Part shown: positions 2,365-18,394 of the stretch, one piece after another
Layout: the number at the start of each line of letters is the position of its first letter
How positions within the stretch are numbered: the stretch's first letter is position 1
Source of the DNA: Caldicellulosiruptor changbaiensis
GTDB lineage: Bacteria; Bacillota; Thermoanaerobacteria; Caldicellulosiruptorales; Caldicellulosiruptoraceae
Length of the DNA stretch: 64,000 bases
Assembly: GCF_003999255.1 (NCBI RefSeq)
Contig: NZ_CP034791.1
Span: 2,520,501-2,584,500, forward strand
Direction of reading: 5' to 3'
Position numbers and translations under genes: made by a program
The notes under the pieces: generated by a model
The model's input: only the letters and a program-made list of their open reading frames with translations
What the model was told of the DNA's origin: nothing
Databases searched by the model: none

Positions 2365-2404
2365 GGAGCTGTCACAACCCTCTTGATGTGACAGCCCCTT
2401 TTTC
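2365..2404. terminator. Bidirectional intrinsic terminator between cupin and livF
   Basis: A 12-bp stem (GGAGCTGTCACA with TGTGACAGCCCC, one G-U pair) has a T run on the plus side (2399-2403) and an A run on its left, so it can end both converging transcripts. Confidence 0.8.
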
Positions 2405-3116
2405 ATCCTCCTAAGTATGCCTTTTTTACATCCGGATTTGAAGCCACTTCTTGGGATGTACCACTTAAAACTATCCTACCTGTCTCTATTACATACGCCC
2501 TGTTTGCAACGCTCAGTGCCATGTTGGCATTTTGTTCAATCAGAAGTATTGTAGTTCCACGTGCATTTATCTCTTTTATAATTTCAAATATCTCACTTAC
2601 CAAAATAGGCGCCAAACCCATAGATGGCTCATCCAATAAAAGAAGCCTTGGACGTGACATTAAAGCTCTTCCAATTGCTAACATCTGCTGCTCTCCACCA
2701 GAAAGTGTACCTGCTAACTGATTTCTTCTTTCATATAGTCTTGGAAACCTTTCAAAAACAATTTTGAGGTCTTTTTCTACCTCAGATCTGTCTTTCCTCA
2801 CATACGCACCAAGCTCCAAATTCTCAATCACAGTCATCTCTGGAAATACTCTTCTTCCCTCGGGTACATGAGAAATTCCACTTTTTACAATCTCTATTGG
2901 AGATTTTTTGGTCAAGTCTTCATTTTCGAAATAGATGCTACCTGTTCGAGGTTTTAAAAGACCTGAAATTGTTTTTAACAATGTAGACTTTCCAGCACCA
3001 TTTGCACCAATCAGTGTCACAATTTCTCCTTCATCAACCTCAAGTGATACAGAAAAAAGTGCTTGAATAGCTCCATAAAAAACATCCATATTTTGAACAC
3101 TAAGAAGCAAAGCCAA
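2403..3116 (-). CDS. livF: Branched-chain amino acid ABC transporter ATPase LivF
   Basis: An ABC ATPase of about 237 residues with Walker A GANGAGKST, signature LSGGEQQ, Walker B LLLLDEPSMGLAP and the H-loop replaced by LLIEQNANMAL, which is typical of LivF. With LivG it powers uptake of branched-chain or related amino acids through LivHM. A GTG at 3122 sits on the ribosome site; TTG at 3116 gives better spacing and is used here. It overlaps the end of livG by about 17 bases. It is the last gene of the ald-livJHMGF operon and ends at a terminator shared with the cupin gene. Confidence 0.9.
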   Translation of the reverse strand: MALLLSVQNMDVFYGAIQALFSVSLEVDEGEIVTLIGANGAGKSTLLKTISGLLKPRTGSIYFENEDLTKKSPIEIVKSGISHVPEGRRVFPEMTVIENLELGAYVRKDRSEVEKDLKIVFERFPRLYERRNQLAGTLSGGEQQMLAIGRALMSRPRLLLLDEPSMGLAPILVSEIFEIIKEINARGTTILLIEQNANMALSVANRAYVIETGRIVLSGTSQEVASNPDVKKAYLGG

Positions 3117-3873
3117 AGTCACCCTCTCCCAAATATGCCTTAATTACACGTGGATTTCTCTTAATCTCAACAGGTGTCCCCTCAGCTATGACCTCTCCAT
3201 AGTCAAGAACATATATTCTTTCACAAATATCCATTACAACTGACATGTCATGCTCTATTAAAAGTATTGTCAAATTAAACTTTTCTTTGATAAACTTGAT
3301 GAGATTTTTTAACTCCTGAGTTTCTTGGGGATTCATGCCAGCTGCAGGTTCATCCAGCAAAAGTAGTTTAGGTGATGTCGCTAAAGCCCTCACAATTTCA
3401 AGTTTTCTCTGTTCACCATAGGGGAGGTTTTTAGCAAGCTCATTTCTTTTCTCATACAAACCGAATATCTTCAATAGCTCCTCTGCTTTTTTCAAATACT
3501 CCTCTTCTTCCTTTATAAACTTTTTGTTTCTCAGGATAGCATCAAGCAAACTATATTTTACATTTTTGTGAAATGCAATTCTTACATTGTCAAGTACAGT
3601 CAGCTCTCTAAAAAGCCTTATATTTTGAAATGTCCTTGAAATACCCATAACAGCTATTTGGTAAGTTTTTTTGTTAGTTATATCACTATTTTCAAACCTT
3701 ATATATCCCCTGTTTGGTGTATAAAGTCCAAGAATGACATTGAAAACTGTTGTTTTACCTGCACCATTCGGACCGATAAGACCAATGATTTTCCCTTCAT
3801 CCACATCAATCTCTACATTGTTGAGGGCAATAATACCTCCAAAATTCATTGTCACTCCTTTTAATTTAAGCAT
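3100..3873 (-). CDS. livG: Branched-chain amino acid ABC transporter ATPase LivG
   Basis: A 257-residue ABC ATPase. Walker A is GPNGAGKTTVFN, the signature region LPYGEQRKLEI, Walker B LLLLDEPAAGMNP, and the switch His is in LIEHDMSVV. The Gly-Met-Asn-Pro after Walker B and the C-terminal IKAYLGE tail are LivG hallmarks. It starts at ATG behind GGAGGGG. It sits between livM and livF with almost no spacing, as in a standard liv operon. Confidence 0.92.
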   Translation of the reverse strand: MLKLKGVTMNFGGIIALNNVEIDVDEGKIIGLIGPNGAGKTTVFNVILGLYTPNRGYIRFENSDITNKKTYQIAVMGISRTFQNIRLFRELTVLDNVRIAFHKNVKYSLLDAILRNKKFIKEEEEYLKKAEELLKIFGLYEKRNELAKNLPYGEQRKLEIVRALATSPKLLLLDEPAAGMNPQETQELKNLIKFIKEKFNLTILLIEHDMSVVMDICERIYVLDYGEVIAEGTPVEIKRNPRVIKAYLGEGDFGFAS

Positions 3874-3875
3874 CT

Positions 3876-4811
3876 TTAAACTCCCCTCCTTTGAAATGAG
3901 AGTATATCTGAAAGTCTTATCTCTCTTTTTCCTAAAAGTCCCTGTGGCCTGAACAACATTATGATTATCAAAATAATTGAATAGAGCACCATTCGCACGG
4001 CAGGCACATTTTGAAGCAGCGTTGAGACAATTGTCAGCACTATAGCAGCTATTATTGAACCTGACAAGCTCCCCAAACCACCTAAAACCACCATAACAAG
4101 GATGTCTATTGATTTAAAAAAGTTGAATATGTCTGGCTGAATAAATCCAAAGTAACCAGCATACATTCCTCCACCAATTCCCGCAAAAAATGCGCCTATC
4201 ACAAATGCTAGTACTTTAAAAAGTGTTGTATTAATCCCTATGGTCTCTGCCGCTATCTCGTCTTCTCTTACTGCTACCATCGCTCTTCCATAAGAAGAGT
4301 TTATAATGTTTGAGAGGATTATTATGGTCAAAATCGCAATGACATAGTAGCCAGTCCAGTCAATTCCCTGAGGTATATCACTGATACCGCTTGCGCCGCC
4401 TAAATAGTCGATATTTTGTATAACAACCCTGATAATTTCTGCAAATCCCAATGTGGCAATAGCTAAGTAGTCACCTCTTAATCTTAGCACTGGAAGTCCT
4501 ATAATAAGCCCTGCAAAGGCTGCAAAAACCCCACCTATCAAAAGACTTAAATAAAATGGAAGCGGTTTGGGAAGAGTTATCAAAACAGCCACAGTATATG
4601 CTCCAATTGCCATAAACCCTGCATGCCCTAAGGAAAACTGTCCTGTGATCCCACTTATTAAATTCAAACTTGTTGCAAGTATTATATTAAGAAGAATCAA
4701 AAGGATGTTTAGCTTGATATAATCATCAATTATTCCCACTTTCATGCCCAATGTAAAAATAGCATAAATTATCAAAATCACAGCCAGGATTAATATCCTT
4801 TTTCTCATCAT
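3876..4811 (-). CDS. livM: Branched-chain amino acid ABC transporter permease LivM
   Basis: A 311-residue polytopic membrane protein with about eight to nine hydrophobic segments. The stretch GQFSLGHAGFMAIGAYT and the cytoplasmic loop GRAMVAVREDEIAAETIGIN (the EAA-like loop that contacts the ATPases) are typical of LivM. It starts at one of two adjacent ATG codons behind AAGGTGTG. It forms the permease heterodimer with LivH. Confidence 0.92.
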   Translation of the reverse strand: MMRKRILILAVILIIYAIFTLGMKVGIIDDYIKLNILLILLNIILATSLNLISGITGQFSLGHAGFMAIGAYTVAVLITLPKPLPFYLSLLIGGVFAAFAGLIIGLPVLRLRGDYLAIATLGFAEIIRVVIQNIDYLGGASGISDIPQGIDWTGYYVIAILTIIILSNIINSSYGRAMVAVREDEIAAETIGINTTLFKVLAFVIGAFFAGIGGGMYAGYFGFIQPDIFNFFKSIDILVMVVLGGLGSLSGSIIAAIVLTIVSTLLQNVPAVRMVLYSIILIIIMLFRPQGLLGKREIRLSDILSFQRRGV

Positions 4812-4820
4812 TTCCCACTA

Positions 4821-5705
4821 TCACACCTTTTCCTTTAAACTCTTACCAAGCAAACCAGCTGGTTTGAATAACAAAATCAGTACCAAGATTGCAAATGCAA
4901 CTGCATCTTTGTACATTGAACTGCCATACCCACTTACAAATGTCTCAATAATCCCAAGTGAAAAACCTCCCAGCAATGCCCCTGGAATAACCCCTATTCC
5001 GCCAAACACCGCTGCAATAAACGCCTTTATTCCTGGTAACACACCCATCAGAGGGTTGATGGTGTTATAATACAGGCCTACCAACACACCAGCAGCACCG
5101 GCAAGGCTCGAACCAATAGCAAATGTATATGAAATGGTCTTGTCAATATCAATCCCCATTAGCTTTGCAGCATCCATGTCTTGAGAAACTGCTCTCATGG
5201 CTTTCCCTATCTTTGTATTCTTAACAATGTAGTTGAGCACTATCATCAGGATTATTGTAATAATGAGAAGATATACCTGTTTGTTATTTACAACTATATT
5301 GCCATGTAAAAAGTGGTAATTCTTTTCTTCTATGAGGCGGGGGAAGACCCGAGAGTCTGCCCCCATTATAAGTTGCATGAAGTTTTCTAAAAAGAGAGAA
5401 ACACCAATTGCAGTAATCAAAATAGAAATTTTGGGTGAGTTTCTAAGTGGTTTATACGCTATTTTTTCTACGATAATTCCACAAAGTGCGCAAAATACCA
5501 TTGCAGCTATCAAACATCCAACCAGATTGAGTTTGAGATAGACAGCTGCCAAAAATCCAATGTAAGCACCAAGCATGAACACATCTCCATGTGCAAAGTT
5601 TATAAACTTCAAAATTCCATAGACCATTGTGTAGCCTAAAGCAATCAGGGCATAAACACTACCTAAGGTGATCCCATTGATTAGCTGCTGGACAAATGTA
5701 GACAA
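4821..5705 (-). CDS. livH: Branched-chain amino acid ABC transporter permease LivH
   Basis: A multispanning permease of 294 residues. The start is placed at TTG (5703-5705), eight bases downstream of an AGAGGTGA ribosome site, giving the usual LivH length; the frame stays open upstream to an ATG at 5756, but that lacks a ribosome site. Family marks include GYTMVYGILKFINFAHGD near the N-terminus, the loop GKAMRAVSQDMDAAKLMGID and a C-terminal LLFKPAGLLGK. It lies between the binding-protein gene and livM in the operon. Confidence 0.92.
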   Translation of the reverse strand: MSTFVQQLINGITLGSVYALIALGYTMVYGILKFINFAHGDVFMLGAYIGFLAAVYLKLNLVGCLIAAMVFCALCGIIVEKIAYKPLRNSPKISILITAIGVSLFLENFMQLIMGADSRVFPRLIEEKNYHFLHGNIVVNNKQVYLLIITIILMIVLNYIVKNTKIGKAMRAVSQDMDAAKLMGIDIDKTISYTFAIGSSLAGAAGVLVGLYYNTINPLMGVLPGIKAFIAAVFGGIGVIPGALLGGFSLGIIETFVSGYGSSMYKDAVAFAILVLILLFKPAGLLGKSLKEKV

Positions 5706-5782
5706 TATATATGTCACCTCTTTTCTTAGCGCACTTGTTCTTTTTTTTATGCCCATTTATTGTTTTTTTAAAAATTACATCT

Positions 5783-6958
5783 CTACGGATTTATCTTTTG
5801 TTTAAATACCTGAACACCGTTTTTGAGTTCTATAATCACCGCAGCCTTTTGGGCATTGTGATATTTGTTTATAGTAATGACTCCTGTCACACCTGCAAAA
5901 TTTTTGGTATCTTCTAATGCTTTTCGCAGTTTTTCTCTATCTGTTGTTGAATTTGCACGTTTTATTGCGTCAGCTACAAGATAAACAAGGTCGTACGAGG
6001 TTGCTACAAAAGCATTTGGTTCATTTTTGTATAGCTGCTTATATTTTTTAATGAAATCCTGAACTTTTTTATCGGGATCTTGACCAGAATAATGTGTTGA
6101 GAAATAAACATTATTAGCATACTTACTGCCTGCTTTTTCGGCAACCTTTGGATCGTCAAACCCGTCGCCACCCATTATTGGAACTTTAATTCCAAGCTCA
6201 CGTGCTTGTTTAATTATCAAACCTGCCTCATCATAATAAACAGGTGCAAAAATTGCCTCGGGGTTCTTTGCTTTTATCTTTGTAAGGATTCCACTAAACT
6301 CCTGCTCACTTTTAGCAAATGCCTCTTCGGCAACAATCTTACCTCCTCCTTTTGTGAAAGCAACTTTAAAGTTTTTTTCTAAACCTTTACTGTAATCCGA
6401 AGAAGCATCGTATATAATAGCAACAGATTTTACTTTGAGAGTTTTTAAAGCAAATTTAGCCATCACATCACCTTGGAATGAATCATTAAAGCACACTCTG
6501 AACACATATGCTTTTGTTTTACCTGTTCTTTCGTCAAGTGTAAGCTTGTCATCTGTAGCTGTAGGCGAGATAATTGGAATTTTGTATTTCATGGCTGCAA
6601 CGGCTGCTGACTTTGTTGCACCTGATGTTGTACACCCTAAAATTGCAAGAACATTCTCTTTTGTTGCAAGCCTTGTTGCAATATTAAGGGCTTCGGTTTT
6701 ATCAGACTTATTGTCAAATATTACAAGCTCTATCTTTTTGCCCAAGATACCGCCTTTTTTGTTTATCTCATCTGTTGCCATCTTGATTCCCTCTAACGCT
6801 CTTTGACCATATTGAGCAACAGCTCCCGAAAGCTCTAAATTCACCCCAAGCTTAATAGTACTACTTGACTTTGAGTAACTCAAAAGGCAGCTGCCAACAA
6901 GAAGGGTAAAAATAGCTATAAACACTACTACTCTTTTGAAAACTTTGCCAAACTTCAT
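5783..6958 (-). CDS. Amino-acid ABC transporter substrate-binding protein (LivJ/LivK family), copy 1
   Basis: A 391-residue secreted receptor. Residues 1-30 form a signal peptide with basic start, hydrophobic core and a possible lipobox ending VGSC, so it may be a lipoprotein. The mature part is a type I periplasmic-binding fold (Peripla_BP_6): LSGAVAQYGQ, the hinge-region TKENVLAILGCTTSGATKS and a ligand-contact Tyr-Asp-Glu stretch. It is clearly paralogous to the protein at 13494-14687. Ribosome site AAGGAGGAGAGG. Its place before livHMGF makes it the likely receptor for that transporter. The ligand could be alanine, proline or branched-chain amino acids and cannot be set from sequence. Confidence 0.88.
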   Translation of the reverse strand: MKFGKVFKRVVVFIAIFTLLVGSCLLSYSKSSSTIKLGVNLELSGAVAQYGQRALEGIKMATDEINKKGGILGKKIELVIFDNKSDKTEALNIATRLATKENVLAILGCTTSGATKSAAVAAMKYKIPIISPTATDDKLTLDERTGKTKAYVFRVCFNDSFQGDVMAKFALKTLKVKSVAIIYDASSDYSKGLEKNFKVAFTKGGGKIVAEEAFAKSEQEFSGILTKIKAKNPEAIFAPVYYDEAGLIIKQARELGIKVPIMGGDGFDDPKVAEKAGSKYANNVYFSTHYSGQDPDKKVQDFIKKYKQLYKNEPNAFVATSYDLVYLVADAIKRANSTTDREKLRKALEDTKNFAGVTGVITINKYHNAQKAAVIIELKNGVQVFKQKINP

Positions 6959-7001
6959 TTTTACCTCTCCTCCTTATCCTTGAAGATTTTTCTAAATCGT
7001 T

Positions 7002-8120
7002 TTATTGTAAAACTACCAATGGGTCGGCATAATTAAAGCCAAGAGATTTTGCAACACCTTCATGAGTTATCATTCCATCACACACATTTAAGCCCCTTCT
7101 TAACTCTGGGTTCTCCCGAAGAGCTCTTTTGTATCCTTTGTTCGCAATTTCAAGAACATATCGAAATGTTGCATTTGTCAAAGCTATTGTAGATGTTCTT
7201 GGAACAGCCCCAGGAATGTTTGCAACACAATAATGAACAACCCCATGTTTTATAAAATATGGATTTTCATGAGTTGTAACTCTATCAATTGTTTCAACAC
7301 ATCCTCCCTGGTCAATGGCTACGTCAACTATAACAGCACCATTTTTCATTTCTTTTACCATCTGTTCTGTGACCAGTTTTGGTGCTCTATACCCCGGAAT
7401 TAAAACAGCCCCTATCAAAACATCTGCATCCTTAACAGATTCTTCAATTGTATAATAGTTAGAAACACGGGTCTGAATTGAACTTCCGAATATATCATCT
7501 AAATAGGTCAATCTCTTGATGTCAACATCCAAAACAGTTACCTTCGCGCCCATACCAATTGCTATTTTAGCTGCATTCAAGCCAACAACACCACCTCCCA
7601 ATATCACAACATTTCCTCTTTCTACACCTGGAACACCGCTGAGGAGCACTCCTCGCCCGCCGTTGTGCTTTTCTAAAAGCCATGCAGCAATCTGAACTGA
7701 CAGTCTACCAGCTATCTCACTCATTGGTCGTAAAAGTGGCAAGCTTCCATCATCTTCTTGAACTGTTTCATATGCTATTGCAATTACACCTTTTTTGAGC
7801 AACACTTGGGTCAGTTCTTGATTTGATGCTAAATGAAGATAAGTAAAGAGTATTTTTCCTTCTTCCAAAAACTCATACTCGCTCTTTTGAGGTTCTTTGA
7901 CCTTTACTATCATCTCGCAGCTGTGGTATATCTCATCTGGCGTATCTACAATTACAGCACCAGCCTTTATATATTCTTGGTCAGAAAAGCCACTTCCTTC
8001 CCCTGCTCCTTTTTCAATGTAGACCTGATGTGAAGCTTCAACCAGGGCTTTAACCCCCCACGGGGTTAGCGCCACCCTATTTTCATTTTCTTTTACCTCT
8101 TTAGGAACTCCAATTTTCAT
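7002..8120 (-). CDS. ald: Alanine dehydrogenase
   Basis: A 372-residue NAD-dependent alanine dehydrogenase (alanine to pyruvate, ammonia and NADH). It shows MKIGVPKEVKENENRVALTP, the substrate Lys in VKVKEP, the His in YLHLAS, and the NAD-binding stretch VVILGGGVVGLNAAKIA. The start is ATG 8120 behind a GGGGG ribosome site; an upstream in-frame start at 8141 would add seven unneeded residues. It is the first gene of the ald-liv operon and is preceded by a promoter-hairpin leader nearly identical to that of the proline-reductase operon. In context it would supply reducing power in a Stickland-type fermentation. Confidence 0.93.
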   Translation of the reverse strand: MKIGVPKEVKENENRVALTPWGVKALVEASHQVYIEKGAGEGSGFSDQEYIKAGAVIVDTPDEIYHSCEMIVKVKEPQKSEYEFLEEGKILFTYLHLASNQELTQVLLKKGVIAIAYETVQEDDGSLPLLRPMSEIAGRLSVQIAAWLLEKHNGGRGVLLSGVPGVERGNVVILGGGVVGLNAAKIAIGMGAKVTVLDVDIKRLTYLDDIFGSSIQTRVSNYYTIEESVKDADVLIGAVLIPGYRAPKLVTEQMVKEMKNGAVIVDVAIDQGGCVETIDRVTTHENPYFIKHGVVHYCVANIPGAVPRTSTIALTNATFRYVLEIANKGYKRALRENPELRRGLNVCDGMITHEGVAKSLGFNYADPLVVLQ

Positions 8121-8246
8121 AGGTATTTTACCCCCTTGCAAATAATGCTGTTGAAATGATATAATTGTGGATACATTGTCGACTTTTAAAATCCCTTCTT
8201 AAAAAGAGAAGTAATGCTGGGCAACAGGTTTTTTTTAATTGAAAAA

Positions 8247-8281
8247 GGCGAAGGTCCCCCTTTCCGAGAGGCACCTTCGCC
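8247..8281 (-). terminator. Promoter-proximal hairpin/intrinsic terminator in the ald-liv leader
   Basis: On the minus strand GGCGAAGGT pairs with ACCTTCGCC and is followed by TTTTT. It starts only about 17-20 bases after the predicted transcription start and so lies between promoter and gene. It may end transcription from prdF, act as an attenuator, or both. The same sequence, loop included, recurs at 16300-16333. Confidence 0.65.
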
Positions 8282-8306
8282 TTTCTTTCTTTATTCTTTT
8301 GCTGAT

Positions 8307-8335
8307 ATTTTAACCAATTTTATCTGACCTGTCAA
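8307..8335 (-). promoter_or_regulatory. SigA-type promoter of the ald-livJHMGF operon
   Basis: Minus strand: a perfect TTGACA (8330-8335), a 17-base spacer and TAAAAT (8307-8312). Transcription would start near 8300, just before a strong hairpin. Confidence 0.7.
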
Positions 8336-8390
8336 TTCCAAAAAATTATTCATTATTGCCTCAAAAATTGTGTATTTTGTTAGATTAAAC

Positions 8391-9398
8391 TTACATTATC
8401 ATAAAACCAAATTTCAAAGGGTCATCTTTCTCAATAACTAATTGATTAAATCCTGTAATATAAGCTTTAGCTGTTACTTCTGGTACAATAGCCGTAAAAT
8501 CTCCCACTTTTGTCTCTTTAACAACTTGTCCTTTAAAGACTGTACCGATTATACTTTCATAGTAAAATGGAGTATTTGCTCTCAAAAGACCTTTTGCATA
8601 AAGTTCTGCCATCTTTGCACAAGTACCTGTTCCACAAGGGGACCTGTCAACTTGTCCTTTGCCAAAAACTACAACATTTCTCAATGTAGCACTTTCGCTT
8701 GTTGGTGGTCCGTAAAATTCAACCAAATCTACTCCAGATATATTTGGCATAAGCGGATGAACAACTTTAATCTTTTCATTGAGAGCATATTTTATTCTCA
8801 TCCCAAGTTTTATTATCTTTTCTAACTCTTGTGGTACTATTTTTAAATTTAATTTTGAAGCGTCAACAAGAGCAAAGAAATTCCCTCCATAGGCTATATC
8901 CACATTTAGCTCTCCAATTTCTGGAATGTCAAGAGTAACACCTGATTGATATAAAAACGAGGGTACATTTCTCACCGTAACAAACTCTATTTCACCGTCT
9001 TTGATAGATGCCCTTGTAATTACAAGACCCGCAGGTGTTTCAACTATTATTTCTGTTTCATTACTTTCTGCTTTTACAACCCCCATCTTTATGGCAACAG
9101 TCACAGCACCTATTGTTCCATGAACACACATGTTTAAATATCCACCACTATCCATGTATATAAGCCCAATATCTGCTTCAGATAACGTGGGCTGTGTCAC
9201 AACTACCGCAAACATATCTTTGTGTCCCCGAGGCTCATTTACTAAAGTTTGCCTTATAAAATCCATATGAGCTCTCATATATTCCTTTTTTTCAAACATT
9301 GTCATACCTGGGATTCTACCAACACCGCTTAGCACAACCCGTGCAGGCTCACCCACCACATGGGTGTCAACAACGTATAATATCCTTTCAAATTCCAT
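8391..9398 (-). CDS. prdF: Proline racemase / hydroxyproline epimerase family (PrdF-like)
   Basis: A 335-residue protein. Both catalytic cysteines of the two-base racemases are present: Cys91 in NMCVHGTIGA and Cys255 in DRSPCGTGTC. The first motif has Val where the family usually has Gly (MCGH). Two cysteines argue for racemase/epimerase activity rather than the 3-hydroxyproline dehydratase variant. It would convert L- to D-proline (or a relative) for the reductase encoded upstream. It is the last gene of the prd operon and is followed by the hairpin at 8247-8281. Ribosome site GGTGATG. Confidence 0.85.
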   Translation of the reverse strand: MEFERILYVVDTHVVGEPARVVLSGVGRIPGMTMFEKKEYMRAHMDFIRQTLVNEPRGHKDMFAVVVTQPTLSEADIGLIYMDSGGYLNMCVHGTIGAVTVAIKMGVVKAESNETEIIVETPAGLVITRASIKDGEIEFVTVRNVPSFLYQSGVTLDIPEIGELNVDIAYGGNFFALVDASKLNLKIVPQELEKIIKLGMRIKYALNEKIKVVHPLMPNISGVDLVEFYGPPTSESATLRNVVVFGKGQVDRSPCGTGTCAKMAELYAKGLLRANTPFYYESIIGTVFKGQVVKETKVGDFTAIVPEVTAKAYITGFNQLVIEKDDPLKFGFMIM

Positions 9399-9443
9399 TT
9401 AACATCACCAGCAGTTAAACTTGTCTCAAAAGGCTTAATAATT

Positions 9444-10172
9444 TTATATCCTCGCCCTGTATTCATATGGAAGCTCTATAACCTCACCAAACCTGTTTAT
9501 TGACTTTAGTGCAAGCAATGCATCTTTTAAAATTGCCTTTTGCATATTGACATTATTAGGTTCACCAGCATTGGCGCCAATCGGGACTTTTGGTGCAACA
9601 ATTCGAGGCGCTCCTTGGTGTTTTGCAACAGGTGGCAAAGCTGCTATAATCACTGTCGGAATCCCTTCCCTTTCAATCGCTCTTTGGACAATTACTGCTG
9701 ACCTATGGCAAGTTCCACACCCTGCTGTCAAAACAGCTGCGTCTACTCCTGTTTCTTTTAATAGCCTTGCAATAGCAGGTCCTGTTTCTTCTGTAAACTT
9801 TTGTGTATTTCCTCCTCCACCCATAAAACCAATGTGGATTTTCGCAACACCTCTTATAAACCCTTCTTGTGCTAGTTCTCTTAACCTGTCAATTGGAAAC
9901 ATACAATTGATGTCTTTGTTTACGTCAGTGTTGTCATACCCCCCATGTGTCACCATCAACTCAGAGGAGGGCGTATCACCTGGAATCTCTCTGTAACTAA
10001 AATCCCCTGCTAAATTGAAAGGCTTTTGAGATTTCAGATGAACACCTGCAGCTGTGACCAGTGCAACAACACAGTCTTTTAAATCTTTAGTAAGCGGTGT
10101 AAATACAGGTTCTGGTACAACTGGAACATAAACTTCTGAGCGAATTCCTTCTATTACCCAGTTTGTTACCAT
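9444..10172 (-). CDS. prdB: D-proline reductase PrdB-like subunit with Cys in place of selenocysteine
   Basis: A 242-residue protein of the GrdB/PrdB family. In the studied proline and glycine reductases the active-site loop reads Sec-Gly-Thr-Cys. Here it is AGCGTCHRSA with an ordinary TGT codon at Cys152, so no UGA readthrough is needed. Other marks are GFMGGGGNTQKFTEETGPAIARLL and REGIPTVIIAALPPVA. With the pyruvoyl-bearing PrdA subunit it would reductively cleave D-proline to 5-aminovalerate. It starts with ATG behind AAGGGGGAG. Substrate identity is inferred from operon context; a related cyclic or amino acid is possible. Confidence 0.85.
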   Translation of the reverse strand: MVTNWVIEGIRSEVYVPVVPEPVFTPLTKDLKDCVVALVTAAGVHLKSQKPFNLAGDFSYREIPGDTPSSELMVTHGGYDNTDVNKDINCMFPIDRLRELAQEGFIRGVAKIHIGFMGGGGNTQKFTEETGPAIARLLKETGVDAAVLTAGCGTCHRSAVIVQRAIEREGIPTVIIAALPPVAKHQGAPRIVAPKVPIGANAGEPNNVNMQKAILKDALLALKSINRFGEVIELPYEYRARI

Positions 10173-10196
10173 CTTGGACTCCCCCTTTTTGGTTTT

Positions 10197-10412
10197 TTAC
10201 TGTTTATTTACCATTACATAACTCATATAAAGCTCAACCTCATCTCCTGTTTGAGGATATTTCTCTGTTATCAGCATTCTAAGTGGAATGCGCATCATTC
10301 CTAATCTACTGTCAAACTGAATGACAACATCTCCTTCACTAAGATCAACAATTTTGCCTTTTATAAGGTTTATAGGCAAGCTATATACATCAATCTCTCT
10401 CATCCTACTCAC
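10197..10412 (-). CDS. Small protein of proline-reductase clusters (CBO2463/CBO2479-type)
   Basis: A 71-residue protein between prdA and prdB. Its first codon GTG overlaps the prdA TGA; an internal ATG three codons on is also possible. It is predicted to be all-beta, with alternating hydrophobic strands and no membrane segment or Cys. I recall a small protein of this kind in clostridial prd operons, sometimes labelled with the CBO2463/CBO2479 domain. Its role is not known to me. Tight coupling with prdA and prdB suggests an assembly or structural role in the reductase complex. Confidence 0.7.
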   Translation of the reverse strand: MSRMREIDVYSLPINLIKGKIVDLSEGDVVIQFDSRLGMMRIPLRMLITEKYPQTGDEVELYMSYVMVNKQ

Positions 10413-12109
10413 ACCCTATCAACTAAGGATTGGTTTTTCTCAATAACTGCCGGGTCCCATTTGCTAAATGGTGGAAGTATCTTTCCTCCTGACATTTTGG
10501 TTTTAAGCATCGCCAGCGCTCTTCTTGCATCCTCAGGACAAAGAGTATTTTCTGCTAAAATTTCAGATTCAATCCCTTCTTCATTTTTATTAAGTTCAAC
10601 CATTGCATCCATATACTTGTTGCCTACAATTAGTGAGCCCTGCACACCTGCAAAAGTGACTCCCACAACAGGGATACCTCGTTTTCCTATCTGCTCAATG
10701 TGCCATGCAAAATCTATGTGATTGTTGCCAAAACCTTCTGTTGTGACAATTGCCCCCTCCACTCCCATCGCTTCTATAAGCATTCCTAAACGTTCTGAGA
10801 CATACAGTTTTTCTTGATTTGCCTGTGGACTGCCAACAAACACAACACCTACAAGGTTCAAATCATTATCAGCTCTCAAAAGCTCAACCAAAGGTTCTCT
10901 TATGTAATGTCTTGTGGTCTCTTTTGTAGCTGGTCCGACACATGTCAAGGCATGTATAGCGCCGTCTAAAACCTCATTTGAAGAAAGGACAACTGGAACA
11001 TTTCCTAAGTCAACATTGCATCTTCCACCTAAAACACCACACGGCTCATTTGGAAGTATAATGTTGTCATGCATAGCACCCTGGCCCATTATCTCTTTGA
11101 CTATAACTACTCGCGGTCTTCCCTTTTTGTCAACCTCAACAAGTTCTTTTATTGAACTTGCCTCAGAGGCACTTTTTGTCTTGAGAACTTCTCTAATTTG
11201 TTGAATGAATACATCACACACCTTGTGCGCTGCATATGGTCCTCTTCTTTCCATACCTGTTCTTCTTTCAATAACAACATCTACTCTAATAATGATATCA
11301 TCCTCATCGGGGCAGCCTGGTCTTCCAAACTTTATCTTTTGGCTCAAAATCCCTTCACATGAACCAAATTCATGAATCTGAACACCATCTTCATCAACTC
11401 CTGTGAGGATTACAACCACACCTTTAAGTATGTTTGTAATGCCTTCTCCAATTTTACCTTCAACCTTTGTGGCAATTGGAATTACATCTAAAATGGTATT
11501 TGTGAAGATATCCCTCTTGTCAGGCTCAATAACATCTATACTTACTTTTTTTACAATAGGGTCAATACTGGAAATCTCATTTACTATGTCTTTTTTCAAC
11601 ATCAATACTCCATCTTGAATTGAGATTCTGTCAGCCCACTGTACTTTTTTAATCTCATATTCCCTCAATGTTAAAACTCTCTTAATTTTCTCTTTTTCTT
11701 CAACCTGATGTTGCTGCGGGAAAAACTGCAGCAGTGAAGTAGGTATTTCAAACGTAATGTTCTTACCCTCACCAATACTTACTCTTATTGGAGAATTGTG
11801 TTCACTTGTATTAAATGCTGATACAATATTTTGTTTTTCAACTTTACAAGCGGATGACAGCTCCTCTTCTATCAAATCAGGAGTGACTGGAGTTAGCGGC
11901 TGAAGAGTTTTTTTGAGTCTCTTCCCCAAAACTTCTTTTATTTTTAATACATTTGAAGGAAGTTGCAAAAATCCACCTGATTGAAGTTCAGGTAAAATCT
12001 CTGGCTCTTCTAAATTTTCAGGTCCGATAATAGTTCCAGCCTCGGTAAGGCAGCATACAACTGCTGGTTCTTCAAAATACCTTTCAATATTTTCATGTGA
12101 GATTGCCAT
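10409..12109 (-). CDS. prdA: D-proline reductase proprotein PrdA (pyruvoyl subunit precursor)
   Basis: A 566-residue protein from ATG 12109, behind AAAGGGGGTG. The frame also opens at 12133 with no ribosome site of its own. The C-terminal third matches the PrdA/GrdE proprotein. Around residue 390 the motif HALTCVGPATKET contains the Cys where self-cleavage is expected to create the pyruvoyl group, giving a larger and a smaller subunit. VVFVGSPQANQEK and EGFGNNHIDFAWHIEQIG follow. An N-terminal RnfC/PrdC-like barrel segment may be present at about 50-160. Upstream is prdC, downstream prdB. The cleavage site is inferred by motif position only. Confidence 0.88.
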   Translation of the reverse strand: MAISHENIERYFEEPAVVCCLTEAGTIIGPENLEEPEILPELQSGGFLQLPSNVLKIKEVLGKRLKKTLQPLTPVTPDLIEEELSSACKVEKQNIVSAFNTSEHNSPIRVSIGEGKNITFEIPTSLLQFFPQQHQVEEKEKIKRVLTLREYEIKKVQWADRISIQDGVLMLKKDIVNEISSIDPIVKKVSIDVIEPDKRDIFTNTILDVIPIATKVEGKIGEGITNILKGVVVILTGVDEDGVQIHEFGSCEGILSQKIKFGRPGCPDEDDIIIRVDVVIERRTGMERRGPYAAHKVCDVFIQQIREVLKTKSASEASSIKELVEVDKKGRPRVVIVKEIMGQGAMHDNIILPNEPCGVLGGRCNVDLGNVPVVLSSNEVLDGAIHALTCVGPATKETTRHYIREPLVELLRADNDLNLVGVVFVGSPQANQEKLYVSERLGMLIEAMGVEGAIVTTEGFGNNHIDFAWHIEQIGKRGIPVVGVTFAGVQGSLIVGNKYMDAMVELNKNEEGIESEILAENTLCPEDARRALAMLKTKMSGGKILPPFSKWDPAVIEKNQSLVDRV

Positions 12110-12163
12110 TTTGCGCACCCCCTTTTTCAGCACAATTTTTTTTAGCGTTAAAAGAAGTAAACC

Positions 12164-13462
12164 TCATACCTCTATCCTTCGCAAAAGTGGATAGCCTAAG
12201 GTTTCAAGTACGTGGTCAGTATGATGAATAACCTTCAAACCCATTTTTTCTGCTATTTCTACTACTGTATTTGTACAGTTGGTACATGTGCTAATAAGCA
12301 GACACTCAGCATTCAGCTTTTTAAGCCTTAAAACCTTTTCAGCCTGGCCAGGACAATTGCCAGGATTTTTGCAGCGTGGCTTACCATTGGCATATACAAG
12401 ATTTTTGCACTTTTCTATACCAACCAAACTTGCCCCCATTTTCTTTACAAGCTGCAAAAGCCTTGTCTCTTTTGCACCACATGCACAAACAAGTATGCCT
12501 ATTTTTGCTTTGAGCTTCTCTGAAATAGGAGGTGTGACAATTACCGCATTGGTTTTCTTTGTAATTGGAAACTCTTGATTTCCTTCTTCACCCATAAAAG
12601 GTCCACCCAGCAGTATTTCATCATATTCTGACAACAAATACCCTTTTATCTTACAAAGGTCTTTTACTGAAAGTCCTATAGGCACATCAAAAAGCGCCTT
12701 TACTACCTTCTTATCATTAAATACACCAGCAAGTGTGAGGTTCCTTTCAATAAGAGGTTTCCTCATCTCAACTGCTTCAGCAATCCGAGAGAGAGTTTCA
12801 ACATTTAGTACAATACAGTTTGCAGCCAAAGGGATCTCAGAAGGAGGCAATAAAACTCCACATATTTTAGCAACCAAAGCTCTTTCTTCCCCAGCTGGAT
12901 AAGTATCTTCTATTAGCTTTATTTCAATATTTTCCCTATCAATTACTTTCTCAATTGCTTCTATTGCCTTTTTGTTCATTTTTTTGATAGCAATAACTCC
13001 TTTTGAAGCTTGGAGATAACTCATCACATATATAAGACCGCGGTAAATAAGCTCCGGGTTATTCTCCATCTGGGTAATGTTGTGAACTAAAATAGGTTCA
13101 CACTCAACACCATTTGCAATTACAGTTCCGCCCTTTATTTTGTTCTTAAGCTTCAGATAAGTAGGATAACCCCCACCACCCATCCCCACAATCCCAGCTT
13201 TTTGGACAATGTCTATAAGGTTCTCTTTCTCGGTAATTTCAAGTGGTAAAAATTCCTTATCATCTACTGCATCGGTTAAAATCTCTATACAGTCTTCTGA
13301 AATACTTGTTACCTTCCCTGTTACACTTGAGTGAACATACACACCTTCTTCTTTTGGAATCGCAACTGTCTGCCCTCTTTTAACCTTTTGTCCAACTTCC
13401 ACAACAGGAATTGCATTCTTCCCATTGTACTGCTTTAAAGAGATGTTCACTTTAAAAGTCAT
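12164..13462 (-). CDS. prdC: PrdC-like electron-transfer protein (RnfC family)
   Basis: A 432-residue soluble protein. The N-terminal barrel-like region (EVGQKVKRGQTVAIP, VHSSVTGKVTSI) and the GIVGMGGGGYPTYLK nucleotide/flavin-site motif are those of RnfC-type proteins. The C-terminal 120 residues carry a Cys set (CACGAKE, CKNLVY, CKNPGNCPGQ, CTNCTN) likely to hold a redox or metal centre. Studied PrdC proteins can be selenoproteins; here all positions are plain Cys. The proposed role is electron delivery from NADH to the proline reductase. Ribosome site GGAAGGGA, and it is directly upstream of prdA. Confidence 0.8.
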   Translation of the reverse strand: MTFKVNISLKQYNGKNAIPVVEVGQKVKRGQTVAIPKEEGVYVHSSVTGKVTSISEDCIEILTDAVDDKEFLPLEITEKENLIDIVQKAGIVGMGGGGYPTYLKLKNKIKGGTVIANGVECEPILVHNITQMENNPELIYRGLIYVMSYLQASKGVIAIKKMNKKAIEAIEKVIDRENIEIKLIEDTYPAGEERALVAKICGVLLPPSEIPLAANCIVLNVETLSRIAEAVEMRKPLIERNLTLAGVFNDKKVVKALFDVPIGLSVKDLCKIKGYLLSEYDEILLGGPFMGEEGNQEFPITKKTNAVIVTPPISEKLKAKIGILVCACGAKETRLLQLVKKMGASLVGIEKCKNLVYANGKPRCKNPGNCPGQAEKVLRLKKLNAECLLISTCTNCTNTVVEIAEKMGLKVIHHTDHVLETLGYPLLRRIEV

Positions 13463-13493
13463 ATCAATCCCTTCCAGCTGGTAATTAAGATTT

Positions 13494-14687
13494 TTATGGC
13501 GTAATCCTTCCCCTAAACTTCATAACACCGTTTTGTATTTCAATCACAACTCCTGAGTGTTGTCCATTGTGTTTACTATCAATGGAAATTGTACCTGCGA
13601 TACTTTTATAATTAGTAGTCTTTTCAAGAGCCTCTCTTAACTTTTCTCTATCCGAAATTGTATTCGCCCTTTTAATAGCGTCAATTAAAAATTTTCCAGA
13701 AACATAGCCAAGAGCTGCTATGCTATTTGGTTCAACTTTATATCGTTCTTTGTACTTTTTAACAAAATCTTGCACTTCTTTATCGGGACTTTGAGAAGAG
13801 TAAAATGTTACAAAATATACATTGTTACAATATTCTCTACCTGCTGTTTCAACTGTCTTTGGGTCATCCAAAGCATCGCCACCGATTATAGGTACATTGA
13901 TCTTAAGTTCTCGCGCTTGCTTTATAATCAAACCTGCCTCATCATAATATACAGGCGTGATAATTGCTTGAGGCTTTTTAGCCTTGATCTTTGTGAGAAT
14001 GCTTCTGAAGTCTTGTTCGCCCTGAGAAAATGCCTCTTTCATAACAATCTTTCCACCTGCTTTGGTAAACGCTTCTTCAAACCCTTTGGTAACCTCTTTA
14101 CTATAGTCGTTCGAAGCATTGTACACAATAGCAACATTTTTGAGTTTGAGTGATGAAATAGTAAACTTAGAAATCAACGCGCCTTCTATTGAGGAGCTAA
14201 AACATATCCTGAAAACATATTTCTTTGTTTTGCCAGTTCTCTCATCAACTGTTACTGTCTCTGCAACAGCATTTCCTGTAATAAGTGGTACTTTGTACTT
14301 TTCGGCAGCCAACGATGCAGACTTTGCAGAACCTGAGGTGCTAAGTCCAACAATCGCTAATACTTTCTCTTTTGTTGCAAGCCTTGTTGCAATATTCAAA
14401 GCTTCTGCCTTGTCAAACTTGTTGTCAAACACTAAAAGCTCAATCTTTGCTCCATTTATTCCGCCTTTTTGATTAACCTCGTCTATTGCTAACCTCAACC
14501 CTTCTAAGTTTCTCTGACCATATTGAGCACCCGTTCCTGATAAAACATCATTCACCCCAATCTTTATAACCTTTTTACCAGTGGCTGAAAATCCAGATGT
14601 ATTACCAAAGCTCAACACAATGGCAATACAAATAGCAAAACATAGTACCAATAACCTCAAAAGTTTTTTACTTTTCATTCTCAACAT
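13494..14687 (-). CDS. Amino-acid ABC transporter substrate-binding protein (LivJ/LivK family), copy 2
   Basis: A 397-residue secreted binding protein with a signal peptide (residues 1-32: basic start, long hydrophobic core, SFGNTSGFSA cut region; no lipobox). It is a close paralogue of the protein at 5783-6958: shared LSG..AQYGQR, EALNIATRLATKE and DERTGKTK.YVFR. It starts at ATG 14687 behind GGAGGT. It lies in the prd operon without permease genes, so it probably feeds the LivHMGF system encoded in the neighbouring co-regulated operon, giving one transporter two receptors. Proline or another reductase substrate is a reasonable ligand guess. Confidence 0.87.
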   Translation of the reverse strand: MLRMKSKKLLRLLVLCFAICIAIVLSFGNTSGFSATGKKVIKIGVNDVLSGTGAQYGQRNLEGLRLAIDEVNQKGGINGAKIELLVFDNKFDKAEALNIATRLATKEKVLAIVGLSTSGSAKSASLAAEKYKVPLITGNAVAETVTVDERTGKTKKYVFRICFSSSIEGALISKFTISSLKLKNVAIVYNASNDYSKEVTKGFEEAFTKAGGKIVMKEAFSQGEQDFRSILTKIKAKKPQAIITPVYYDEAGLIIKQARELKINVPIIGGDALDDPKTVETAGREYCNNVYFVTFYSSQSPDKEVQDFVKKYKERYKVEPNSIAALGYVSGKFLIDAIKRANTISDREKLREALEKTTNYKSIAGTISIDSKHNGQHSGVVIEIQNGVMKFRGRITP

Positions 14688-14718
14688 AGAAACTATACCT
14701 CCTCATTTCCATACTTTT

Positions 14719-16071
14719 TTACAGTCCATTTTGCAAACAGTACTTTATTGCTTCTTCTAAGACATTCAAGCCATACTCTGCCTGCTCCTGTGTCATGACA
14801 AGTGGTGGCAAAAGCCTCAAAACATTGCTGTATATACCTGCGCTTATAAAAATCACTCCTCTTTGGTAGGAGAATTTTATAACCTCTTTTACAAACTCAG
14901 GGTAAGGCTGTTTTGAATTTCTGTCCTTTACAAATTCAATTCCCCACATTGCAGCAGTTCCACGAACATCTCCAATCACACTATACCTTTCAAACATCCT
15001 CTCCAGTTTTTCTTCTATAATTTTCCCTAATCTCTTAGCATTTGCTAAAAACTCTCCCCTTGCAAACTTTTCTATCACTACATTTGCCGCAACACAGGCT
15101 AAAGGACTTCCTGCATATGTCCCACCTACTCCTCCCTCATCAGGAGCATCCAAAATCTCTTTTCTGCCAACTACTGCACTGAGTGGTATACCATTTGCGA
15201 TGGACTTTGCAACTGTTATCAGGTCGGGCTCTAAACCAAAATACTCACTGGCAAAAGTATAACCAGTTCTGCCAAACCCTGTTTGAATCTCATCTACAAT
15301 GAACACAAAACCATTTTCTTTGCAAAGATTTTGAAGTTCCTGAAGATACCTCTTTGGTGGAACAATTATACCACCTTCTCCTTGAATTGGCTCAACAATA
15401 ACTGCTGCAATATCCTCCGGCGACACTTCGGTTGCTATGAACTTTTTTATTCTTTCAATGCACTCTAAATCACATTCAGGATACTTGTATGTATGATTGC
15501 ATCTGTAACAATAGGCATATGGAATCTTATAGACATCTGGTATAAATGGTCCAAAACCATGCTTGTATGGTTTTACTTTACTTGTAAGTGTGAGTGCAAA
15601 GTATGTTCTCCCATGAAAAGACCCTTCAGCAGACAATATAACTCTCTTTTTGGTATACTTTCTGCTAAGCTTAATAGCATTTTCAACCGCTTCAGCTCCG
15701 CTATTTGTTAGAAGCACCTTTTTTTCGTATTTTCCAGGTGCAATTGAAACAAGTTTTTGTGCAACATTTATATAAGGCTCATACATAGCAACATGAAAAC
15801 AAGGATGTATATATTTCCCAACTTGCTCTTTTATTGCTTCAACAACCTCATCATCACAATGACCTGCATTTTGCATCCCAATCCCACTTGCAAAATCTAA
15901 AAAAATGTTGCCATCCACATCTTTAATAAGTGCACCTTTTGCTTCTTCTACAAATATGGGAATAGCATTACTTATCCCTCTTGACACCAGCTCTTTTCTT
16001 TTTTGCAGGAGCAATTTTGATTTCTCACCCGGAACCTCAGTTTTTATTTCTGGAAGAACATTTTCAATCAT
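14719..16071 (-). CDS. Class III aminotransferase or amino-acid racemase (PLP, GabT/ornithine type)
   Basis: A 450-residue fold-type I PLP enzyme. The start is ATG 16071 (ribosome site AGGAGGA); the frame extends to 16137 without one. Marks: LTNSGAEAVENAIK, VDEIQTGFGRTG (the PLP-ring Asp) and the PLP Lys in TVAKSIANG. The Cys-rich insert AYCYRCNHTYKYPECDLEC recalls archaeal ornithine aminotransferase and broad-range racemase members of this family. As first gene of the prd operon it could make proline precursor from ornithine, turn over 5-aminovalerate, or racemise an amino acid. Sequence alone does not decide. Confidence 0.8.
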   Translation of the reverse strand: MIENVLPEIKTEVPGEKSKLLLQKRKELVSRGISNAIPIFVEEAKGALIKDVDGNIFLDFASGIGMQNAGHCDDEVVEAIKEQVGKYIHPCFHVAMYEPYINVAQKLVSIAPGKYEKKVLLTNSGAEAVENAIKLSRKYTKKRVILSAEGSFHGRTYFALTLTSKVKPYKHGFGPFIPDVYKIPYAYCYRCNHTYKYPECDLECIERIKKFIATEVSPEDIAAVIVEPIQGEGGIIVPPKRYLQELQNLCKENGFVFIVDEIQTGFGRTGYTFASEYFGLEPDLITVAKSIANGIPLSAVVGRKEILDAPDEGGVGGTYAGSPLACVAANVVIEKFARGEFLANAKRLGKIIEEKLERMFERYSVIGDVRGTAAMWGIEFVKDRNSKQPYPEFVKEVIKFSYQRGVIFISAGIYSNVLRLLPPLVMTQEQAEYGLNVLEEAIKYCLQNGL

Positions 16072-16299
16072 TTTTTGTCCTCCTTTAGTAGGATAGGCCT
16101 TTTTAATCTCTAGAAATTTCTCTTTTGCGTATATCATCCTCTTTTCAGCTATTATTTTTATTTTTTGATATCACCTCCTTTTTATAATGTTGTATCAACA
16201 CGCTTAAGATGATATAATATACGCTGCATCATTTTTAAGTGTTTTAATTGCAATTGAGTTATATTAAGAAATCTTGTAGGGTATGTATAAATTAAAAAA

Positions 16300-16333
16300 G
16301 GCAAAGATGCCTTTTTCGGTAGGCACCTTTGCC
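16300..16333 (-). terminator. Promoter-proximal hairpin/intrinsic terminator in the prd-operon leader
   Basis: Minus strand: GGCAAAGGTGCC pairs with GGCATCTTTGCC (one G-U) and is followed by TTTTTT. It begins about 20 bases after the predicted start of transcription. It matches the ald leader hairpin in sequence as well as shape, with the shared AAGGTGCCT..CG.AAA loop side. Confidence 0.7.
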
Positions 16334-16359
16334 TTCCGTTCCTTTTTCTTTTGATTTTT

Positions 16360-16387
16360 ATTATAGTTTTCTCGCTCTTAATGTCAA
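16360..16387 (-). promoter_or_regulatory. SigA-type promoter of the aminotransferase-prd operon
   Basis: Minus strand: TTGACA (16382-16387), 16-base spacer, TATAAT (16360-16365), both boxes perfect. No competing promoter is seen between it and the gene at 16071. Confidence 0.7.
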
Positions 16388-16439
16388 TATCAAACATATA
16401 TTCGCAGTAGCTATAAAATTAGACATTAAATAATACGGC

Positions 16440-16690
16440 TGCCTCACAACTTCCGCCTTTCCAAACAACTTTCGATTACTCTAAACCTCGTAAGAGCAAG
16501 TGACCCCCGTTGGTCTTGCGGCTTTATCTTCGCGTACTGCCCTAATTCCCATAGATCAAAACCTCATCTCACCTCATGAGATGTTTTCTATCTCTTAGGA
16601 GAGCTTCAATCTCCCCAGGAAGAACCTCCCTTTAGCGCATGTCTATGGAACTAAACGGTAATTGCATGGTTGTAATCCTGACTGTTAATG
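16440..16690. other. Relatively GC-rich, structured remnant, perhaps the tail of an IS200/IS605-type element
   Basis: This stretch is richer in GC than its surroundings and has several short inverted repeats, for example CATCTCACCTCATGAGATG. It has no intact ORF of note. On the minus strand it looks like the non-coding 3' end that follows tnpB genes. It stops close to the left end of the ISL3-type element. Identity is a guess. Confidence 0.25.
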
Positions 16691-16719
16691 ATAAAATAAA
16701 ATCGGCTCTATAATAAATA

Positions 16720-18168
16720 TTGGGGTGGGGAAATAAAAAAGAGCACTTGTTTTGAATACCTGGTATAATATTATATTATTGATAAAAAGGAGAAAAATAC
16801 AAAAGAAAAGGAGGTATTCAGAACAAGTGCCTGACATAAATTATATCACCCAATTATTAAAATCTGAAGATGTAATAATAGAGGATATAGTGGAAAATGC
16901 AACTGAAGTAGAACTTTATATAAGACTTAGGCAAAAAGTACATATTTGTCCCAATTGCAAAGCCCAGACTTCAAAAGTTCACGATTACAGAATTCAAAGA
17001 ATTAAAGAAATACCGATGCTGGGAAAGAAGACATACATTGTGATAAGGAAACGCAGATATGTTTGTAAAGTTTGTAAAAAGAGATTTTATGAACAAGTAG
17101 ATTTTTTACCGAAATATCAAAGAATGACAAATAGATTGGCAGCATGAACAGTAAAGTCAATTAGGAAATACAATTAGCATGACATAAGTTGCGAAGTTGT
17201 CAAACGTATCTGTTTCAACAGTGATGAGGTTATTTGATAAAGTTAGTCCAGTGGAAGCAAAAGATGAATTACCAGAGGTCATATGTATAGATGAATTTAA
17301 AGGACATGCAGGTGGAGCAAAATATCAATGCATAATTGTAGATCCTTTAAATGGCAAGATAATAGATATTTTGAAAGATAGGCGACAGGAGGTTTTAACA
17401 GAATATTTCAAGAGGTTTAAGAATCGAGATAAGGTAAAGTATTTTATCTGCGACATGTGGAAGCAATTTGCTGAGATAGCAAGGATATATTTTAAGAAAG
17501 CAAAGGTAGTTATAGATAAGTTTCATTTTGTGAGGTATGTCTACTGGGCGGTAGAGAATGTACGCAAAAGAATACAAAAGAATTTAGGCAAAAGTCTTAG
17601 GAAGTACTTCAAGAGAAGCAGGAAATTGATACTTAAAAGATATGAGAAACTTAAGCCTGAGCAGAGAGAAGAATTAGAAGTAATGTTTTTATATGCACCG
17701 GAATTAAGGATAGCTCACAGATTGAAGGAAGAATTTAACAAAGTATTAGAAAGTAAGACATGTGATGAAGCAAAGGAGAAGCTCAAGAAATGGATAGAGA
17801 TGGCAGAATCAAGTAATGTAGAAGAATTCCAAAGGTGTGTACGGGTATTTAGGAATTGGTTTTCAGAGATAGTGGAATCATTTGAGGTACTATATACAAA
17901 TAGTTTGACAGAAGGATTTAACAACAAGATAAAGGTGTTAAAGAGGAAAGCATATGGATTTAGGAATTTTGAAAGGTTTAGGAAGAGGATACTGTATAGT
18001 TGTACAGACTAAGAATATGGAAGAGGTAAATATTTAAAAGTTCCCTTTTTAATAGGGGATAGAAGGTGTTGATGAGTTTTTGCAATCAAATAATTATGAT
18101 TGTTATTGTTGTAATTAAATACATGCTTAATTAAACTGAAAGGTGGGCATTCAGAACACCCACCCCAA
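16720..18168 (+). mobile_element. Degenerate ISL3-family insertion sequence
   Basis: The ends carry the inverted pair TTGGGGTGGG (16720-16729) and CCCACCCCAA (18159-18168). They enclose about 1.45 kb with one interrupted transposase gene. An internal inverted repeat of about 19 bp (CACTTGTTTTGAATACC at about 16744-16760, complement at about 16812-16828) lies at the left end. No clear target duplication was found by eye. Confidence 0.65.
16827..18012 (+). pseudogene. ISL3-family transposase, interrupted by stop codons and a frame change
   Basis: The N-terminal piece (to 17147; frame open from 16752, likely GTG start near 16827) has the ISL3 zinc-ribbon: CPNC about 30 residues into it and later CKVCKKRF. 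After RMTNRLAA the frame hits TGA, then TAG. The continuation 17197-18012 is in another frame and has MSNVSVSTVMR (helix-turn-helix) and the DDE region: VICIDEFKGHAGG (first Asp), VICDMWK-like FICDMWKQF (second Asp), VIDKFHFVRY and TEGFNNKIKVLKRKAYGFRN (Glu). Several independent stops show real decay rather than one sequencing error. Confidence 0.8.
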
Positions 18169-18232
18169 CTCTTGACAAAGAGCCAAATGAATTTGTAACA
18201 ATATTCCAAGTCTCAAAACCCTTGAAAACAAA

Positions 18233-18309
<77 letters not shown>

Positions 18310-18318
18310 GCATTTAAA

Positions 18319-18394
<76 letters not shown>

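Follow-up and report, generated by a model that had tools for sequence, protein, structure and literature searches.

The window considered here is the whole stretch of 64,000 nucleotides of the Caldicellulosiruptor changbaiensis genome that was analysed, and the positions below count from its first letter. It carries a D-proline reductase (prd) gene cluster on the reverse strand, transcribed in the order class-III aminotransferase, amino-acid binding protein, PrdC, PrdA, a 71-residue protein with a CBO2463/CBO2479 domain, PrdB, a PrdF-like racemase, alanine dehydrogenase and an ABC transporter. The coordinates of these features, together with the evidence used to define them, are presented in Table 1.

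Table 1 Features of the prd locus of C. changbaiensis (positions in the window).
Feature	Position	Strand	Basis
Insert, ~15.8 kb	2379..18184		Absent from the matching G008 site, 169 bp there
Branched-chain-amino-acid-type ABC transporter: two ATPases, two permeases, binding protein	2403..6958	-	Permease 4821-5756 by place only
Alanine dehydrogenase, possible NADH source for alanine/proline pair	7002..8141	-	TIGR00518 566.9 bits, cut-off 391.85
prdF-like proline racemase, Cys91 and Cys255 kept	8391..9398	-	PF05544 393.6 bits; PRK13969 472.7 bits, below cut-off 556
prdB, D-proline reductase subunit, Cys152 form	9444..10172	-	TIGR04483; sole TGA-less prdB among those examined
Codons +5 to +12 after codon 152, presumed SECIS stem place in Sec-prdB, apparently decayed here	9681..9704	-	Stem pairs, synonymous divergence
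Codon 152, TGT (Cys), TGA in Sec-PrdBs	9717..9719	-	Codon read and relatives compared
Small CBO2463/CBO2479-domain protein, usual prdA-prdB neighbour	10197..10412	-	NF041553 63.9 bits, cut-off 50; same place in many relatives
prdA, pyruvoyl proprotein, Thr-Cys cleavage site HALTCVGPA	10409..12133	-	TIGR04480 814.7 bits, cut-off 700
prdC, electron-transfer protein, Cys-only (NCPGQ, CTNC)	12164..13462	-	TIGR04481 515.7 bits, cut-off 490
Amino-acid ABC transporter substrate-binding protein	13494..14687	-	PF13458 226.9 bits
Class-III aminotransferase, 4-aminobutyrate type	14719..16137	-	PF00202 413 bits; NF005376 568.5 bits, below cut-off 676
ISL3-type insertion sequence, right edge of insert	16704..18184	+	PF14690 and PF01610; end sequences, bounds by comparison

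The cluster lies within an insert whose flanks (1-2378 and 18185-18830) match the congener genome G008 at 95.5% and 95.7%, respectively, and are 169 bp apart there. Five tRNA genes are located directly past the insert (18236-18770), and none of the 11 congeners has a PrdB match. Part of the insert need not be foreign, since the transporter genes have, among the matches listed, paralogues of 72–73% nucleotide identity elsewhere in the genome and in congeners. The G+C content of the prd genes (0.35–0.42) is not distinct from that of their neighbours. The alanine dehydrogenase gene (7002-8141) adjoins the proline reductase set, and the two may complete an alanine/proline Stickland pair within a single cluster. 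The leader upstream of the operon (16181-16420) is, among the matches listed, 81% identical to G000:C1:402653-402902 and in part 77% identical to 391878-391994; an Rfam search of it gave nothing, and it may belong to a mobile element or be a leader RNA not described before.

The ORF at 9444-10172 (-) is an intact frame of 242 amino acids. It belongs to the PrdB family, matching TIGR04483 with 424.5 bits (cut-off 300); the specific GrdB models TIGR01917, NF040794 and NF040795 give 84–98 bits, well below their cut-offs of 602–800, and the loose subfamily model TIGR01918, which also covers D-proline reductase, is matched with 89.3 bits, over its cut-off of 65.45. The active-site loop reads LTAGCGTCHRSAV (TAG-C-GTC-HR), and the codon of the xGTC loop which is TGA in the studied PrdBs is TGT, as the first-pass annotation of this DNA had claimed. 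The resulting Cys is residue 152 of 242, the same number as that of the Sec in C. sticklandii PrdB (residue 152 of 242 in the description given in PMC3091704). Based on this codon and the family score, the protein was filed as a variant which would work like the TIGR04483 family. A sequence search of solved structures gave none for PrdA and just three chance-level matches for PrdB. The predicted PrdB structure (pLDDT 85.7) had no Foldseek match at E ≤ 0.001, and its best structural match (Z 8.8) is a common alpha/beta arrangement.

The comparison of PrdBs for Sec and Cys, which had been proposed as a check, gave TGA at the Sec site in all 98 other prdB genes examined, and TGT in C. changbaiensis alone. 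The 98 genes are made up of 78 loci from a contig scan, three extra copies within those loci (TGA in 78 of 78 and in the three copies), 13 new genes from whole-genome searches and four from plasmids. The contig scan matched 278 relatives, of which 80, corresponding to the 78 loci, were kept, the other 198 standing outside all counts; six loci (L170, L171, L172, L180, L181 and L184) were left out of the counts, and of the tree presented below, as repeats. The whole-genome searches with TIGR04483 covered overlapping sets (101 relatives, 398 genomes of the phylum, and classes of 3, 26 and 59). Among the matches listed, each of the 21 other genes over the cut-off carries exactly one TGA, and eight of them repeat contig-scan loci. 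The position of the TGA was confirmed in 96 of the 98 genes; the remaining two, both copies in G041, were counted by the presence of one in-frame TGA. Three prdB sequences lie inside open frames of 644–656 amino acids (G087:C2:2930245-2930943, G125:C1:1749930-1750631 and G041:C3:85357-86058), and may be fused there to an adjacent prd protein.

Plasmid records matching PrdB number 25, seven of which were opened. Four contain near relatives, all with TGA, and the other three distant genes, namely the GrdB-like L192 with TGA, and L190 and L191 with Cys. Eight Terrisporobacter plasmid records of ~21–22 kb match PrdB (one opened, L189), and on large plasmids of Enterococcus and Ligilactobacillus (three opened) prdB is adjoined by prdD. 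Judging from the plasmid records, D-proline reductase genes look mobile. The phage records searched for PrdB relatives gave one distant match only, and no relative was found in the viral contigs searched.

PrdB-like proteins of Alphaproteobacteria (Haematobacter, Roseomonas) resemble C. changbaiensis PrdB in that they belong to the PrdB/GrdB superfamily and have a Cys at the Sec position and a His at the position equivalent to residue 185. They differ from it in their loop (CPIC or CPVC), and the Haematobacter protein scores 83 bits with TIGR04483, where the cut-off is 300. The stretches seen around these genes contain no prd genes. As for the PrdB-like L190:1372-2298 and L191:295-1203, one adjoins a class-III aminotransferase gene and the other selO. 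Cys homologues of PrdB have been counted in earlier surveys, with 110 in the marine counts given in PMC2398784, and one in sea data and five in genomes in those given in PMC1088965. Since the sole Cys relative scored reaches 83 bits, the marine Cys homologues may be another branch, and proteins of the alphaproteobacterial type are perhaps what the marine surveys counted.

The C. changbaiensis genome, which is one contig of 2,905,633 bases, was searched for selA, selB and the tRNA for Sec, as the annotation had advised, and none of them was found. There was no match to selA. The selB search gave eight matches, none over the cut-off, of which the best (the only one opened) reads as EF-Tu, and the tRNA-Sec search gave 19 matches, two of them over the gathering score; the six that were opened, including both of these, are Ser, Gly, Ser, Ser, Trp and Leu tRNAs. 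At the level of the genus, selA is absent from all 12 Caldicellulosiruptor genomes; the only further genome of the family lacks it too, and it is over the cut-off in each of the 17 other prdB-bearing genomes tested. The characteristics of a bacterial selenoprotein (TGA with a SECIS, selA, selB and tRNA-Sec) were not found in this prdB and its host, in which a TGA at this site would most likely act as a stop. The missing Sec machinery is a simpler reason for the presence of a Cys-PrdB than heat, which had been put forward as helping the enzyme to work without selenium. A role of heat is not supported: the nearest Sec-PrdB relatives, which we take to be thermophiles, keep their Sec, and higher growth temperatures are reported in PMC1794560 to be linked with the retention of Sec.

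Synonymous divergence along prdB was scanned using 1,500 sampled pairs of Sec genes. Of the 234 eight-codon windows, the one comprising codons +5 to +12 after Sec, which is the presumed place of the SECIS stem, has the least divergence (89 Sec genes; 0.336, compared with a mean of 0.541). The value for C. changbaiensis prdB against the Sec genes at these codons is 0.738, which ranks at the 91st percentile among the values of this gene. Among the nine Sec genes closest to it, the same-residue codon comparisons show 0 differences in 288 at +5 to +12, compared with 3,132 in 7,087 elsewhere, and C. changbaiensis prdB differs synonymously from each of the nine at six of these eight codons, a level similar to that in the rest of the gene (60–71%). 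The amino acids CHRSAVIVQRA are unchanged in spite of this codon drift. The six presumed stem pairs, which were deduced from a single relative's fold, are all present in 57 of the 89 Sec genes, with four or five in 29 and three in 3; C. changbaiensis prdB keeps two. None of the 89 Sec genes folds as weakly in this region, and one of them (L037) is further from the consensus codons than C. changbaiensis prdB (9 compared with 8). Energy z-scores for the 57 nt after codon 152 were also considered and rejected as a SECIS marker, the Sec genes (mean -0.19) being indistinct from shuffles; the value for C. changbaiensis prdB is +0.99, and 6 of the 89 Sec genes are as high. The codon-level constraint test took their place. 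The SECIS signal thus appears to have decayed, and the description of PrdB as selenium-free in the first-pass annotation is in agreement with the TGT codon, the machinery searches and the drift of this region.

In a tree of 90 PrdB rows, in which all 89 others are Sec proteins, C. changbaiensis PrdB is sister to eight Sec-PrdBs (nine-row set, 99/87), five of which are from Thermosediminibacteraceae or Tepidanaerobacteraceae and three from genomes of one family. The next-branching Sec-PrdB is from a Sporomusaceae MAG (100/82). The nesting among Sec-PrdBs depends on the midpoint root that was used; with this root, the grouping with a non-proline reductase which would have spoken against a PrdB was not observed. 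The position of the gene among Sec-PrdBs, and the drift of the codons after Sec while the amino acids were kept, are best read as a Sec-to-Cys conversion. We consider it probable that this is a genuine PrdB with a selenoprotein ancestor, in which the Sec codon was replaced by a Cys codon, and that it serves as catalytic subunit in a D-proline reductase encoded by an inserted cluster in a selA-less genus. The opposite history, with an ancestral Cys and a lineage that never used Sec, would follow the common direction for most selenoprotein families, which is Cys-to-Sec according to the account of PMC1794560. It is nevertheless highly improbable here, given the nesting of the gene among 89 Sec-PrdBs (midpoint root) and the TGA of the GrdB-type rows, which among the matches listed is present in all except two short matches of low score (21 bits).

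The conversion may also have occurred elsewhere, which is a refinement of this reading and does not exclude it: the cluster would already have carried the Cys in a selenium-free lineage outside our sample, from which it then entered C. changbaiensis. The SECIS codons and the synonymous sites are saturated in comparison with the Sec relatives, while the flanks of the insert are just ~4.5% different from G008, and the Cys state therefore looks older than the insertion. The end branch of C. changbaiensis PrdB is long (0.52). Quick trees of PrdA, PrdC and PrdF (35–36 rows, from 36 chosen loci) place PrdA in a 10-row set (SH-aLRT 99) with neighbours of the same kind as for PrdB, and PrdF in a nine-row set (97); the nearest row to PrdF by path is from Clostridiaceae, and PrdC is in no starred set. 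The C. changbaiensis branches are long for all four of the proteins put in trees, which indicates that the immediate donor is absent from our sample. On the other hand, no donor was found, with nothing above 78–79% identity (80 of 278 relatives kept), and an old residence in the genus followed by loss in its other members fits as well. We regard the chances of a conversion elsewhere as evenly balanced.

The proteins encoded next to PrdB were compared with their relatives at near-invariant columns. PrdA, which has the Thr-Cys site expected of the partner of PrdB (processing predicted), keeps 99 of 99. PrdC, over the cut-off of TIGR04481, departs at 9 of 74. The Cys-only nature of PrdC had been pointed out in the annotation and is correct, although it is an ordinary trait: of 82 distinct relatives, 36 have a PrdC that is TGA-less, with the nine nearest loci among them, and C. 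difficile has a Cys-PrdC in the account of PMC3091704. With a Cys-PrdC in the nearest relatives, one codon change may have sufficed to make the cluster independent of selenium. At near-invariant columns, PrdF shows 9 departures out of 77; it keeps both catalytic Cys, and is below the cut-off of all six racemase, epimerase and dehydratase models that it matched. It has the motif MCVHGT, the Val of which is found in none of 80 relatives. The long branches, together with the departures of PrdF and PrdC, could reflect relaxed constraint or a changed role.

The first-pass annotation had also mentioned a different substrate, and a related reductase acting on, for example, a hydroxyproline or some other cyclic amine was considered. 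The scores, departures and unusual Val of PrdF are weak hints in this direction, as is the 4-aminobutyrate type of the aminotransferase encoded by the first gene. As PrdA and PrdB score as equivalogs, nearly all of their near-invariant residues are kept (with no departure in PrdA), both Cys of PrdF are in place and the neighbours are prd genes, another substrate is improbable.

The accessory proteins PrdD and PrdE were not found, the former genome-wide and the latter by place. A search of the C. changbaiensis genome with the PrdD model gave PrdA as its sole match, below the cut-off, and the gap between prdB and prdF is 45 bp, too short to hold prdE where it usually lies. Among the 47 relatives listed, the space between prdB and prdF is 1.2–1.8 kb in 37 (that of L022 has prdD- and prdE-like frames); prdF is directly behind prdB in four Sec relatives (L034, L039, L058 and L060), absent from the stretch in four and elsewhere in two. 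A second prd set of C. botulinum is also described as being without PrdD and PrdE in PMC3091704. A maturation enzyme, PrdH, is named in PMC13410763. If the loss of Sec had killed the enzyme, the cluster could be a decaying or inactive remnant persisting by drift, and the long branches, the PrdD that was not found and the prdE missing from its usual place would all be consistent with this. However, a prdF directly behind prdB, as seen in 4 of 47 listed Sec relatives, is no sign of decay by itself, the frames are intact, and the dN of PrdB is 0.15–0.17 relative to its eight nearest relatives (dS being saturated and not computable). The near-invariant columns are retained in PrdA, as described above, and in PrdB to the extent of 84 out of 87. 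It is therefore unlikely that the cluster is a remnant, and a converted PrdB is still preferred.

The 87 near-invariant columns of PrdB are those conserved in at least 97% of the 89 Sec genes, and the three departures of C. changbaiensis PrdB are the Sec itself, Q185H and M198I. A leave-one-out control showed that the latter two are not exceptional by number: no row has more than two unique departures, a number found in 2 of 90 rows (C. changbaiensis and the Sec gene L063), and since a Sec gene also has this maximum, their count alone says little. A lead is given by the position of the first one. A His at the 185 place is found in the three Cys forms seen, from two lineages (C. changbaiensis and L190 by alignment, L191 by eye), the residue is Gln in the 89 Sec-PrdBs, and there is no His in 19 usable Sec rows of other types (30 loci tried). 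His185 might have a helping role. A broader proposal would be that of a mobile, selenium-free alanine/proline Stickland module, which became Sec-independent in a selenium-free lineage and spread in this form, with the change from Gln185 to His (and from Met198 to Ile) compensating for the weaker nucleophile; we put this forward tentatively, as a rather doubtful extension of the conversion.

From the sequence, we infer the catalysis, substrate and electron flow of the C. changbaiensis enzyme, including its activity without selenium, as follows. D-proline would be made by PrdF and bound by the pyruvoyl group of PrdA. The thiolate of Cys152 of PrdB, in place of the selenolate, would then attack the alpha carbon, upon which the ring would open, and the intermediate would be resolved by Cys155, with formation of a Cys152-Cys155 disulphide. 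This disulphide would be reduced by PrdC at the expense of NADH, some of which alanine dehydrogenase may supply, and 5-aminovalerate would be the released product.

What was found is most likely a converted selenoprotein rather than merely a Cys-PrdB, and the searches for selenium-insertion machinery in its host found none. Such changes are rare in bacteria and mostly concern FdhA and SelD, according to the summary in PMC13188914. The 2006 survey (PMC1794560) reports 15 Sec-to-Cys events in four families, and its Table 1 has zero in GrdB (11 selenoproteins) and in proline reductase (5). Our literature search gave nothing on proline reductase in Caldicellulosiruptor, and a Cys-PrdB may be known outside that search. 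C. changbaiensis PrdB offers a natural test of the purpose of selenium in proline reductase, as sulfur and selenium could be compared directly in this reaction with a Cys enzyme that occurs naturally in a culturable thermophile. No Sec machinery would be needed to make the protein, which belongs to a family where the sequence search gave no solved structure for PrdA and just chance-level matches for PrdB, and a Sec-to-Cys conversion would be documented with the lost codon constraint visible codon by codon.

Compared with the PrdAB/PrdC system of the C. sticklandii type, the C. changbaiensis cluster shares the Thr-Cys site of PrdA, the xGTC loop at residue 152 of 242, PrdC, the PrdF-like racemase and the CBO2463-domain protein between prdA and prdB. 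It differs by having Cys instead of Sec, a presumed SECIS that appears decayed and a host in which Sec machinery was not found, as well as by the lack of PrdD in the genome and of prdE in the cluster, and by the alanine dehydrogenase and transporter genes alongside. While the hairpin of C. changbaiensis prdB appears to have decayed with no recognisable remnant, unlike in the described Sec-to-Cys conversions, it is like those of bacteria (FdhA, SelD and a few others) in that a TGA would have been replaced by a Cys codon in the descendant of a selenoprotein.
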